Below the pieces are notes generated by a model, which saw only the letters and a program-made list of their open reading frames with translations, searched no databases and was not told the DNA's origin. 64,000 bases of DNA from Bacillota bacterium (GTDB taxonomy: Bacteria > Bacillota > Bacilli > Alicyclobacillales > SLC66): contig JAJZCW010000016.1 in assembly GCA_021828865.1 (NCBI GenBank), forward strand, positions 1 through 64,000, written 5' to 3'. Made by a program: the position numbers and the translations under genes. Shown here one piece after another: positions 29,895-34,127 of the stretch (position 1 is the stretch's first letter; every line of letters starts with the position of its first letter).

Positions 29895-30806
29895 TTACAA
29901 AATCTCTACCTCTCCCACATCACGCTCGTCTAGTTGGTGCCGCCAATTAGACGCATGACCTATTTTTGCTGAGGAGCCAGCCATCACTGCTCTGACGATG
30001 CGCATGCCATTTTCATCTGCCACAAAATCGCCAAATTCCCGTCCTTCGCCAAATCGCCCTGGCAACATGTAGGCATGGTATGCCTTCATCTGATGCAAAA
30101 TGGTATACGCCTGGCGAATGACGCTTGGGGCAACCTTTGGGTCTAGTGTGCTCAATACGATAGAGTAGGCGGGATACGGCAGGCGGTGCAACTGATTGAT
30201 GGCCGCGTACAGTAATCTTGCCTGCCTTTGTACCCTCCCCACATCACCAAGCGGTTCATGACGAAAGCGAGCCACCACTAGCGCCTCATCGGGAGACAGA
30301 GAGTGCAGTCCTGGCTGTAAATGGACCTGCCCCTCTGGCGAATCCATGTGGCGATCCACATAAAATGCCACATGACCAAGCTTGTAGAACGCTTTTTTAA
30401 ACCTTGGAAAATCCGCATAAAGCACCGCACCGACTGGCAATCCTGTGATACTTTGCACCGCGCGCATTAGCGCCACGTCTCCGTAAAACATGCGCACCGC
30501 ATTGATTTTTAGGTAGCCAACGCTTGGCACGTATACGAGTGTATCCCTTGGAATGTGCAGGGCGTTTACGGTATGACTGCCAGCTTTGGTGTAAAGCAGC
30601 ACCAGGCTATCCGTATGTAAATCCGTGCGTCTATCGCGGTTGGGACTATGCGGATCGCGATCAAGCCCGGCAAGCAGTAAGGTTTTTGGCCCCTCATGTA
30701 AAACAAAAGAGGAGGCATACGCCTTCTCCTCGTCACCCATTTGATTGAACATGTTCATCATCAAACCAATTGCCAGACTGCTAAAGAGGAGGGAAATCAA
30801 TTTCAA
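29895..30806 (-). CDS. LytR-CpsA-Psr family protein
   Basis: LCP enzymes transfer polyprenyl-linked glycopolymers onto peptidoglycan outside the membrane. The 303-residue protein has an N-terminal membrane anchor (about residues 1-20) and the LCP domain: LLAGLDRD, RTDSLVLL-like RRTDLHTDSLVLLYT, LHIPRDTLVYVP, LKINAVRMFYG, and ARFRHEPLGDVGRVQRQ with the conserved Arg residues that bind the pyrophosphate. It starts at a TTG overlapping the stop codon of the upstream glycosyltransferase (TTGA), so the two are co-expressed. Together they look like a unit that builds and attaches a wall polymer. Confidence 0.88.
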   Translation of the reverse strand: MKLISLLFSSLAIGLMMNMFNQMGDEEKAYASSFVLHEGPKTLLLAGLDRDPHSPNRDRRTDLHTDSLVLLYTKAGSHTVNALHIPRDTLVYVPSVGYLKINAVRMFYGDVALMRAVQSITGLPVGAVLYADFPRFKKAFYKLGHVAFYVDRHMDSPEGQVHLQPGLHSLSPDEALVVARFRHEPLGDVGRVQRQARLLYAAINQLHRLPYPAYSIVLSTLDPKVAPSVIRQAYTILHQMKAYHAYMLPGRFGEGREFGDFVADENGMRIVRAVMAGSSAKIGHASNWRHQLDERDVGEVEIL

Positions 30807-31549
30807 TTTGTGCTTCGACCTCTCACTTGACTTTTAGCCTCCGACCAGGCGGCCAGTGCAAATCTAGGCAGGGCCATCTGCCTGCGCATGCGTGTTGGCT
30901 CTTTGAGCAGCCGATAGAGCCACTCCAATTTCGCTTTTTGAAAAAATACCGGTGCTCGCTTCACCGTACCGCCAATTACGTCAATCGCGCCTCCGATGCC
31001 AATAGCAAGCGGAACACCCATTTCTTCTAAATGTGTTGCAATAAACCTTTCTTGGGCTGGTTGCCCCAATCCTACGAGGAGAAGTTGAGGAGCCTTCCCA
31101 CGAATGGAGGAGATGACACCGCTCACTTCCGCCTCCTTAAAATACCCATTTCGCCCCTCAATATGTAAGGTCGGGTGCAATTCACGAAGGGTGGATAGCG
31201 CCTTTTGCAATGAATCCTCACTAGCACCAAGCATATAGACACTCATTCCATTTTGAGCAGCATAAGCAATGAGCTTCTGTGCTAAGTCCACTCCGGTAAC
31301 GCGCTCTGTGATGGGTTGTCCATACCAACGCGAGGCGATCACGATGCCAATGCCATCTGGCGTGATAACGTCAGCGCTACTCAACACTTCCTGAAGATTC
31401 CTGTCTTTTCCCACCTTCATGACAAATTCCGGACCCGCGGTGATGACAAAGTGCGGCTGTGTATCCTGCATGAATGCCTTACAGGTCATTAGTACCTCTG
31501 ACTCAGAGGCAGAAGAAAAGGGCACCCCCAATACTTCTACGATTGACAC
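30803..31549 (-). CDS. WecG/TagA/CpsF-family glycosyltransferase
   Basis: This GT26 family adds N-acetylmannosaminuronic acid (WecG) or N-acetylmannosamine (TagA) to a polyprenyl-diphospho-GlcNAc lipid on the inner face of the membrane, the commitment step for enterobacterial common antigen or wall teichoic acid. The product of 248-249 residues has the core motifs TPDGIGIVIASRWYGQPITERVTGVDL, VYMLGASE, and LLLVGLGQPAQERFI with GIGGAIDVIGG. GGGGG lies eight bases before GTG 31549 (five before TTG 31552). It is translationally coupled to the LCP gene. A c-di-GMP riboswitch leader precedes it, so expression probably follows c-di-GMP. Confidence 0.9.
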   Translation of the reverse strand: MSIVEVLGVPFSSASESEVLMTCKAFMQDTQPHFVITAGPEFVMKVGKDRNLQEVLSSADVITPDGIGIVIASRWYGQPITERVTGVDLAQKLIAYAAQNGMSVYMLGASEDSLQKALSTLRELHPTLHIEGRNGYFKEAEVSGVISSIRGKAPQLLLVGLGQPAQERFIATHLEEMGVPLAIGIGGAIDVIGGTVKRAPVFFQKAKLEWLYRLLKEPTRMRRQMALPRFALAAWSEAKSQVRGRSTN

Positions 31550-31608
31550 CAAACGGGCCCCCTAACCAAGTAAATCGTTCGCATAAACCAATTTTAAAAG
31601 CTAACCTG

Positions 31609-31636
31609 CAAAAAAGCCACCCTCTCAGGTGGCTTT
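31609..31636 (-). terminator. terminator between riboswitch leader and wecG/tagA gene
   Basis: On the minus strand AAAGCCACC-tgagag-GGTGGCTTT continues into a T-run (seven T in total beyond the stem). It lies about 190 bases downstream of the c-di-GMP aptamer and 60 bases before the coding start. It is a plausible regulated terminator for the riboswitch, though no antiterminator pairing with the aptamer was found by eye. Confidence 0.85.
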
Positions 31637-31725
31637 ATCGAATATTATAAGGACGAACTACATAAAAGCAAATTATATGTCAAAAATATAGATAAGTTCC
31701 ATTACATACCCTCGACCATGAGTGA

Positions 31726-31803
31726 ACGAGCTCTTGGGGGGTATCCTAGGGGGGACTAGGAATTGCTCGTCCACACCATGGATAGAGGTTACTTCTATAC
31801 CAT
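31726..31803 (-). ncRNA. structured leader RNA with C-tract loops
   Basis: Between the c-di-GMP aptamer and the terminator the minus-strand RNA can fold into two stems. The first is at 31778-31803 (ATGG-t-ATAGA pairing with TCTAT-CCAT). The second is at 31726-31770 (ACGAGC with GCTCGT, inner TCCTAG with CTAGGA). In the second, one hairpin loop and one internal loop are runs of C (31750-31754 and 31736-31741). These could pair with the GGGGG ribosome site of the next gene (31558-31562). I recognise no known RNA family in this part; the pairing is predicted by eye. Confidence 0.5.
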
Positions 31804-31823
31804 CCCATCACCGTACGCTCGAT

Positions 31824-31922
31824 GACCGTCGTCCGGCAGCTCGGCGATCATTGGTGGTTACACCGTTAGACCCGTAGCTTTGCGTCCTTCTCTTTCGACA
31901 AGTTTGCCTTTTTCGGGAGGTC
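31824..31922 (-). promoter_or_regulatory. c-di-GMP-I (GEMM-I) riboswitch aptamer
   Basis: The minus strand holds the hallmark segments in order: GGCAAAC, a P2 hairpin closed by a GAAA tetraloop (CTTGTC-GAAA-GAGAAG), GGACGCAAAGC, TACGGGTCTAA, and GATCGCCGAGCTGCCGG as the 3' side of P3 with the tetraloop-receptor region. These are the conserved c-di-GMP-contacting and core positions of the class I riboswitch. Flanking GACC (31919-31922) and GGTC (31824-31827) can close the helix. A promoter lies directly upstream, and the next gene in the direction of transcription is the wecG/tagA glycosyltransferase. Three GGDEF proteins in the window supply or remove the ligand. Confidence 0.9.
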
Positions 31923-31934
31923 TTTCTGGATATT

Positions 31935-31963
31935 ATTCTATAGCATTCGACACTATGAGACAA
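31935..31963 (-). promoter_or_regulatory. promoter of the riboswitch transcript
   Basis: On the minus strand TTGTCT (31958-31963), a 17-base spacer and TAGAAT (31935-31940) lie just before the aptamer, placing the RNA start near 31928. It makes the riboswitch leader independent of the upstream gene at 32015. Confidence 0.7.
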
Positions 31964-32014: not shown

Positions 32015-33136
32015 TTAATTAGTGGTCCCGCTACTGCCTGATGTCGAATTATTTCCACTGCTCGAGTTCGTGCCCACCCCAGAACTGGAACCAGAACCTG
32101 TCCCAGACGAGGTTCCAATCCCGGTAGAAGTCGAGCCTGAATTCCCTGCCGAATTGGTGCTTGCCTGTATCAAAGTGGGCCCCATCAAATCGGTTACCAC
32201 AATCGGATCTGTCGTTCCATCCGGATTTTTAGCAGGAGCCTGATAGGTTTGTCCCATGTTGTAGACCGTACCATTAGCGAGTTTTAGCTGATACTGAATC
32301 TCCAATATATTCACCCCAGCCACATTGACACTGAACGGAGTGGGTTGCGAAGCGCTTTGTACCCAGCCTGTCGAGCCAAGTATTTTGCCATCGCCGACAA
32401 ACGTCAATTGAACCGCACCACCAAAGTTTCGGGACAAATCATCAATAGCAAATTGCCCAGTAAACGTTTGGTAGTTGCCACCAAGCGTGTAGTCTATTCC
32501 AGGGACCACCGATTTTTGTCCTGCCCCAACCCCCCATTCAATCGCGTATTGGGCAGGATAAATTTGTCCCAACACGGTGGGTGTCCAAAACCCGATCAAA
32601 TCCTGTTGTGGATAAAGATTCGTATTGCTAAAGTCTCCATACAATTTACTAGGCGTGAGGGTAAAAATCGGCGCTCCCGATGAGATGACAGGAGGATTCA
32701 CATTTTCAAAGTTGACGTTGCCGCTAGTGTCTGTGCTAGGCACGAGTCCTGTCGCTGATTCATACCCAGAAGAGGATGCCGGGATAGAGTAGATGTTTTT
32801 TCCATCCGTAATGCCACTGGGAAGCTCGGTTCCGTTTAAGTACACCTTAAATGGTTTCAACGTCTTATCAGCACCAAGCACCTGCACTTCCGCAGGTTTA
32901 TTGATCCATTTGACGGTGGAATCCAATGCATGACCCACTGTGCTCACCGGAACATAGACGTTCTTATTGTAAATAAAAGGCTCTGCCGTCGTAGCTACCT
33001 TTTGCCCATTGACGATCAATTGGATGTTGTCATAAGAGGCTTGTATTTTACTCACACCGCTTTGCGCGTAAGTGACCCCACCAAACACTACGGCGCCTGT
33101 CACAATACCTAACCACAAACTCATTGAAGGTTTCAT
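32015..33136 (-). CDS. secreted copper-amine-oxidase-N-domain protein with Ser/Gly tail
   Basis: The 373-residue protein has a signal peptide (MKPSMSLWLGIVTGAVVFGGVTYAQ, cleavage near residue 25). It also has a copper amine oxidase N-terminal-like domain (VNGQKVATTAEPFIYNKNVYVPVSTVGHAL..., to about residue 90), a module used as a surface/stalk domain in Bacillota and not catalytic on its own. Beta-rich domains of unknown role follow, then a low-complexity tail of Ser, Gly, Thr and Asn from about 330. The start is ATG 33136 with AGGAG nine bases upstream. It is a paralogue of the gene just upstream. Ligand and function are unknown; the two are likely surface-exposed. Confidence 0.8.
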   Translation of the reverse strand: MKPSMSLWLGIVTGAVVFGGVTYAQSGVSKIQASYDNIQLIVNGQKVATTAEPFIYNKNVYVPVSTVGHALDSTVKWINKPAEVQVLGADKTLKPFKVYLNGTELPSGITDGKNIYSIPASSSGYESATGLVPSTDTSGNVNFENVNPPVISSGAPIFTLTPSKLYGDFSNTNLYPQQDLIGFWTPTVLGQIYPAQYAIEWGVGAGQKSVVPGIDYTLGGNYQTFTGQFAIDDLSRNFGGAVQLTFVGDGKILGSTGWVQSASQPTPFSVNVAGVNILEIQYQLKLANGTVYNMGQTYQAPAKNPDGTTDPIVVTDLMGPTLIQASTNSAGNSGSTSTGIGTSSGTGSGSSSGVGTNSSSGNNSTSGSSGTTN

Positions 33137-33164
33137 ATCCCTATTCTCCTCGTCTTCTCCATCG

Positions 33165-34127
33165 TCACTGTACACTCACATTTAGAAAATCTGCGTCTAC
33201 GCTAATCCCGTTTGGCAGTGCTTGCCCCTCTGTGAACACGGCACCTGACGCGGTTTGAACCGAGAAGGACACATTCAGCATCTTCGTATTGGTGACATCC
33301 ACGACTACAGGCGTGGCCTGTTGTCCTTTTGCCATCCAAGGAGACTGATACAGCACCTTGCCATCTCCACTGATCGTCAACTGAAGCTTGGTGTTATTCT
33401 GTGAAGCGTCATCCACACCAAAGAGTCCGCTTAGATTGCTGAAATTACCATTCAAATTATACGTAACGCCAGGAACCACTGACCCTTTCGATAAAGACGC
33501 CCATACGATACTTTGCCCATTAGCGGAAGGATAAGCGGTACCCGCGATCTTGGCCGGGCCATCCGACCACCCGGTCATTGGCCCTATACCGCCCCCCACA
33601 TATTTGGCAAAATCCCCATAATCCCTCACATCCGTAAAATCAACTAATGGCATATGGCCATCTGGTCCACTGCCTATATAGAAGTTATCCGTTTTGGGAT
33701 CGAGATAAAAAGGCTTGTTTAGCATGGTCGCAAGCGCAATGGGAGAAATATATAATTGGTTCTGATACAAAACCGAATGGGTCTGGGGATACCAGAAAAT
33801 AGGCGTTCCGTAATATTCTAGTGCCCCTGTCTGCAATTGCGGAGCATTTTTATCGGAAATAATCACCTGATGCTTGGCACCATCCCATTTCACACTAGCC
33901 CCAAGCCCATGACTGATAGTGCTTACCGGAACATAGACATTACTATTGTAAATAAATGGTTCAGCCTGTGTGGGAATCGTTTTGCCATTCACATTGATAT
34001 GTATATTGGCAAAATGCGCATCAATCAATTGAACACCCGTACTCGCATAGGTGATGCCACCAAACACGGTAGCACCTATCAACAAACCAGTTGCATAGGT
34101 AGAAACGAATTTGTAAAATGACTTCAT
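33165..34127 (-). CDS. secreted copper-amine-oxidase-N-domain protein
   Basis: The 320-residue protein has a signal peptide (MKSFYKFVSTYATGLLIGATVFGGITYA) and the same N-terminal domain as its neighbour (INVNGKTIPTQAEPFIYNSNVYVPVSTISHGLGASVKW). It also shares the downstream layout (GSVVPGVTYNLNGNFSNLSG matches PGIDYTLGGNYQTFTGQF in the neighbour). It lacks the Ser/Gly tail. The two genes are 28 bases apart and form a tandem duplication in one operon. GAGGAG stands about 11 bases before the ATG. A surface role is inferred; the substrate is unknown. Confidence 0.8.
   Translation of the reverse strand: MKSFYKFVSTYATGLLIGATVFGGITYASTGVQLIDAHFANIHINVNGKTIPTQAEPFIYNSNVYVPVSTISHGLGASVKWDGAKHQVIISDKNAPQLQTGALEYYGTPIFWYPQTHSVLYQNQLYISPIALATMLNKPFYLDPKTDNFYIGSGPDGHMPLVDFTDVRDYGDFAKYVGGGIGPMTGWSDGPAKIAGTAYPSANGQSIVWASLSKGSVVPGVTYNLNGNFSNLSGLFGVDDASQNNTKLQLTISGDGKVLYQSPWMAKGQQATPVVVDVTNTKMLNVSFSVQTASGAVFTEGQALPNGISVDADFLNVSVQ

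Follow-up and report, generated by a model that had tools for sequence, protein, structure and literature searches.

Several described riboswitch systems resemble the leader studied here. The Bc1 c-di-GMP-I riboswitch of Bacillus thuringiensis has a long expression platform with dual adjacent terminators, for which a transcription and a translation layer have been proposed (PMC11218506). Tandem and heterologous contiguous riboswitches are common in Bacillota (PMC9481103, PMC12452182), and in the HMP-PP (thiS) riboswitch the aptamer is embedded in the terminator (PMC6478431).

The window, a stretch of 64,000 nucleotides from a Bacillota genome, contains a leader on the minus strand which can be compared with each of these. 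Its aptamer is a full member of the c-di-GMP-I class (GEMM-I, RF01051) by covariance score and canonical core, but it departs from GEMM-I by the approximately 195 nt between aptamer and terminator, by a second conserved structured module in between and by a pairing of the 5′ flank with a post-aptamer loop. A c-di-GMP-I aptamer with a long expression platform is shared with Bc1, whereas the platform of Bc1 consists of two adjacent terminators, and the available part of its description mentions no aptamer-independent conserved C-tract module (PMC11218506). As in tandem riboswitches there are two structured modules in one leader (PMC9481103, PMC12452182), but the second of these matches no known aptamer. 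In two relatives the stem of this module runs into a U-tract, which places the element inside a terminator hairpin as in the HMP-PP (thiS) riboswitch; sequence, structure and genes differ, and the terminator of the window is separate from the motif. Judged from sequence comparison, the novelty lies in the second module, which is uncatalogued and precedes a single wall-polymer operon either by itself or coupled to the aptamer. The arrangement points to a control element of cell-wall genes that has not been described before, and the orphan candidates gain a cis-regulatory RNA supported by covariation.

Leader layout and the c-di-GMP-I aptamer

Read 5′ to 3′ on the minus strand, the order is promoter, c-di-GMP-I aptamer, linker, C-tract stem-loop, AU-rich linker, terminator, GGGGG, WecG/TagA and LCP. 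The features are listed below with the basis of each assignment in brackets.

31963-31935, minus strand: promoter TTGTCT-17-TAGAAT (consensus match; conserved in relatives)
31946-31963, minus strand: promoter −35 region with the conserved direct repeat TTGTC-N6-TGTCGAA (consensus match and homologous operons)
31940-31935, minus strand: promoter −10 TAGAAT (consensus match)
31913-31922, minus strand: aptamer 5′ flank GACCTCCCGA, complementary to a GGGAGG-type loop 3′ of the aptamer (conservation)
31832-31918, minus strand: c-di-GMP class I aptamer (RF01051, 86.1 bits, E 1e-15)
31800-31827, minus strand: post-aptamer elements GGTC (31827-31824), CGGT and GGGATGG (31806-31800) (order conserved in aptamer-bearing family leaders)
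31716-31781, minus strand: C-tract motif, whole (fold z, covariation, covariance-model matches)
31781-31765 with 31731-31716, minus strand: outer stem P1 (part of the C-tract motif)
31761-31756 with 31749-31744, minus strand: inner stem P2, TCCTAG/CTAGGA (part of the C-tract motif)
31755-31750, minus strand: hairpin loop TCCCCC (C5 tract at 31754-31750)
31743-31732, minus strand: 3′ internal loop TACCCCCCAAGA (C6 tract at 31741-31736)
31636-31610, minus strand: intrinsic terminator AAAGCCACC-TGAGA-GGGTGGCTTTTTT, between C-tract motif and operon (sequence)
31562-31558, minus strand: ribosome binding site GGGGG (sequence)
31552/31549, minus strand: TTG/GTG start of the operon's first gene (sequence)
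30803-31552, minus strand: WecG/TagA/CpsF glycosyltransferase (PF03808, E 4e-56)
29895-30806, minus strand: LytR-CpsA-Psr (LCP) wall-polymer ligase (PF03816, E 2e-24)

All coordinates in the preliminary description were correct, those of the two C-tracts included. Its promoter upstream of the aptamer matches the consensus and is kept in relatives, and the terminator, the GGGGG site and the wall-polymer genes that it placed downstream were found again, the genes through their PF03808 and PF03816 matches. The terminator was missed by a generic scan but is plain in the sequence. A second promoter by which the leader could be bypassed had also been considered; the stretch from hairpin to terminator holds only a weak TATAAT-like −10, whose transcript still meets the terminator.

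Almost every genome of the family has the direct repeat TTGTC-N6-TGTCGAA across the −35 region of this operon, and hardly any has the reversed pattern used as control; the repeat looks like a candidate transcription-factor site. One further copy lies in the window's own genome (G000:C42:26394).

The RF01051 match spans model positions 1-87 of 87 with a score of 86.1 bits against a gathering threshold of 35. By this score and its conserved core the aptamer, which was called canonical from the outset, is an ordinary c-di-GMP-I member. The pocket guanine (Vc2 G20, corresponding to RF01051 model position 11 by our own mapping) is present in the window. In the aptamers of G010 (L069:2182-2259) and G006 (L074:1474-1390) an A replaces the G at the equivalent position. 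Since G20A in GEMM-I is associated with 3′,3′-cGAMP binding (PMC6274999), the second messenger to which this operon responds may differ between genera. For the aptamers of G011 (L076) and G008 (L075), in which the core is canonical by eye, the best-scoring model was the variant RF03167 (c-di-GMP-I-GGC).

The 5′ flank GACCTCCCGA was kept wherever an aptamer-bearing leader is complete at its 5′ end. Its partner in the window is GGGATGG, with a bulge in the pairing, and a compensatory change was found in G011 (flank CCTCTCGA with loop CGAGAGAGG). We take this pairing as the probable platform of the aptamer itself and not as part of the C-tract motif.

Distribution and structure of the C-tract motif

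Leaders of the same operon were taken from 18 genomes of the window's family, the habitat of which would be acid mine drainage according to isolate names. An initial DNA search identified the leader in three genomes of the same genus and the C-tract core in further genera. The motif was present in 15 of the 18 genomes, in one copy each and always before the LCP/WecG operon, and covariance models (R1/R2) detected no second copies elsewhere in the family genomes. It was located behind a c-di-GMP-I aptamer in 12 of the 15 (the contig of G002 starts inside the aptamer), and alone directly behind the promoter in G004, G007 and G014, which represent two genera. No leader among the 18 genomes carried the aptamer without the C-tract motif. 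Because it is also present without the aptamer, the C-tract hairpin is, by this comparison, a separate conserved RNA module and not just a long riboswitch expression platform. The preliminary description had taken the long leader between aptamer and gene as such a platform; the structured C-rich region is real, but the C-tract hairpin in it is independent and occurs without an aptamer in these three genomes. As the motif exists in nature both alone and coupled to the aptamer, the contributions of the two modules can be told apart without engineered constructs.

The genus g3 (G005, G012 and G016) had neither aptamer nor motif, and no model match was obtained there even with the filters off. Where the motif would be expected, its leaders (L065, L067 and L068) have another hairpin with a short U-run after it, and farther downstream a similar terminator; this looks as though the C-tract motif had been lost or replaced.

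Outside the family, the covariance model found no C-tract motif in 41 sister-family genomes, and twelve sister-family leaders contained neither aptamer nor motif; WecG is there located behind an LCP-like gene. Further genomes outside the family, 399 sampled at class and 398 at phylum level, gave no match under strict filters, which missed two diverged members of the family itself (G006 and G010), so that diverged relatives outside the family could be missed as well. The exact core was matched among 84,980 species genomes only in seven Bacillota-labelled MAGs, at least six of which match family members, and had no match in viral contigs. Rfam 15 gave nothing over the motif at the gathering threshold for the window and the family leaders, and at E ≤ 1-5 only noise over the motif in the window and the stand-alone leaders. 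None of the leaders examined matched a T-box model.

The structured C-rich RNA claimed behind the aptamer was borne out by folding: the C-tract stem has a much more stable fold than its shuffled sequences, with z = −5.5 for the window copy and −3.3 to −8.5 in four relatives. Fourteen distinct motifs, each confirmed present in its source DNA, were aligned by hand; the outer stems were not alignable by MAFFT and were aligned by hand and through the covariance model. The inner stem occurred as CCTAG/CTAGG, CTCGG/CCGAG, CTCGG/CCGGG, TCTAG/CTAGA, CCTGA/TTAGG and CCTAA/TTAGG. None of its 70 cells (14 sequences, five pairs) was non-canonical, and two-sided change was found at each pair, so the covariation looked for in related leaders is present. 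Shuffling whole arms among nine lineages gave approximately 6 expected mispairs against 0 observed (p = 0.00075). The outer stem was almost completely changed in sequence between members with the pairing kept: 95.9% of cells were paired in the model-fitted alignment, a level reached by 0 of 500 shuffles, and slid-partner controls gave 25-50%. Since the model-fitted alignment leans toward its own model and the hand-aligned outer stem was made to pair, the clearest evidence comes from the inner stem, whose alignment is fixed by the loop.

G-U pairs occur and are tolerated in the stems, and selection therefore acts on RNA. The hairpin loop reads (T/C)C4-6 across members, and C-runs of at least 4 were present at both places, hairpin loop and 3′ internal loop, in all motif copies; the last C of the internal-loop run of G006 can pair with the outer stem. 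The motif has the features of an orphan riboswitch candidate, a covarying conserved structure located 5′ to genes with a possible expression platform.

In G014 (L071, reverse strand, approximately 2460-2560) the motif 3′ side CATGACGC is exactly complementary to GCGTCATG in the downstream linker, a possible alternative pairing that is absent from the close relative G007. A weak alternative pairing in the window, of TATAGAAGT with the linker, was rejected as it is not conserved in G001.

Possible modes of control

Of 15 orthologous leaders, 13 have an equivalent terminator that separates motif and gene. G004 and G010, the remaining two, have a U6-U8 tract immediately after the stem of the motif itself; the motif stem of the window has no U-tract directly after it. 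With a terminator or an own-stem U-tract in all 15, what unites the leaders is read-through of transcription into the operon. We find it somewhat probable (roughly 55%) that two control modules act one after the other in this leader as a transcription attenuator, in which the C-tract motif recognises something and thereby changes read-through. The upstream module would be an ordinary c-di-GMP-I riboswitch, in which the 5′ flank can pair with the element just after the aptamer. In the downstream module the outer stem is long and variable, the asymmetric internal loop contains a C-run, and the inner hairpin of 5-6 bp has another C-run as its loop; this module would act independently of the aptamer. 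Its two C-tracts are probably the recognised element, because both persist while the stems drift, and they might recognise a small ligand, a protein or a G-rich RNA. Recognition would alter read-through of RNA polymerase into the tagA/wecG-LCP operon at a terminator approximately 100-190 nt downstream of the motif, or at the U-tract after its own stem in two relatives. That the motif controls termination, that it recognises a partner and how the two modules combine is what we infer for this leader. A conserved antiterminator pairing with the terminator was not found in the family leaders, which counts against the attenuator model. The family has few genomes and every copy precedes one operon, and the partner is therefore not deducible from gene variety.

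Were that partner a metabolite, wall-polymer attachment would at its LCP step be subject to another input, linked to second-messenger signalling. The C-tract motif could then represent a new class of riboswitch, with an aptamer whose two C-tracts sense a precursor of the wall polymer or some other metabolite, working alone in some genera and in series with the c-di-GMP riboswitch in others. We hold this as a tentative possibility; if true, it would constitute a two-signal gate on wall-polymer attachment, and no riboswitch of such kind at the LCP step was found described in the literature. It is doubtful that the motif is the site of an RNA-binding protein (e.g. with a KH or cold-shock domain), by which antitermination or operon autoregulation would be possible. 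Invariant single-stranded C-runs carried by a covarying stem would be typical for a protein site, and the position between promoter and terminator suits antitermination, but the analysis identified no candidate binding protein. LoaP, the one named Bacillota factor of this type that was examined, is absent, and LoaP-dependent antitermination was rejected: 0 of 18 family genomes scored above the NF033641 cut-off, and the best matches were ordinary NusG. A structural spacer or mRNA-stability hairpin that receives no signal would agree with the very stable stem and with the failure to find a switching partner; we regard it as quite unlikely, since it does not account for the persistence of both C-tracts next to stems in which almost every position has changed.

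An anti-ribosome-site arm, as suggested in the preliminary description, would have the C-tracts pair with the G-rich site and add a translation layer to the terminator. G-run sites, GGGGG or GGGGGG between −11 and −15 relative to the start, are present in 8 of 15 leaders, compared with a per-genome background of 3-24% (8% of sampled genes in the window's genome), as computed from genes on sampled stretches, although these eight are not independent because related genomes share ancestry. Four other leaders of the 15 had GGAGGG, and the motif-less genus g3 has GGAGG-type sites where readable. Duplexes of C-run and G-run are strong in genomes with G-run ribosome sites, but motif and own site do not co-adapt, the pairing being no better than with the sites of other genomes (permutation p = 0.57). 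Moreover, G011 lacks a G-rich site and G006 and G010 have only GGCGGG/GGGTGG, yet all three keep a good C-run, and the terminator hairpin sits between motif and ribosome site. The proposed arm is on these grounds unlikely. Two further readings are hardly credible. Leader-peptide attenuation, with the tract read as CCC CCC TAG (Pro-Pro-stop), could draw on the frame AGT CCC CCC TAG being open upstream in several leaders; it was rejected as the frame is closed in G006 and G013, shifted by single-base changes in C-run length in G002 and G008 and deprived of its TAG in G004 and G010, and as no start in it has a Shine-Dalgarno sequence upstream. The inverted repeat CCTAG-N6-CTAGG might act as an operator in DNA, but the kept G-U pairs contradict this, and the strand-asymmetric C-runs, the variable covarying outer stem and the position well downstream of the promoter also speak against it.

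Upstream of the operon (window 32015-34127) two adjacent proteins with copper-amine-oxidase-N and NPCBM domains are encoded, and genes similar to this pair precede the operon in several relatives too.
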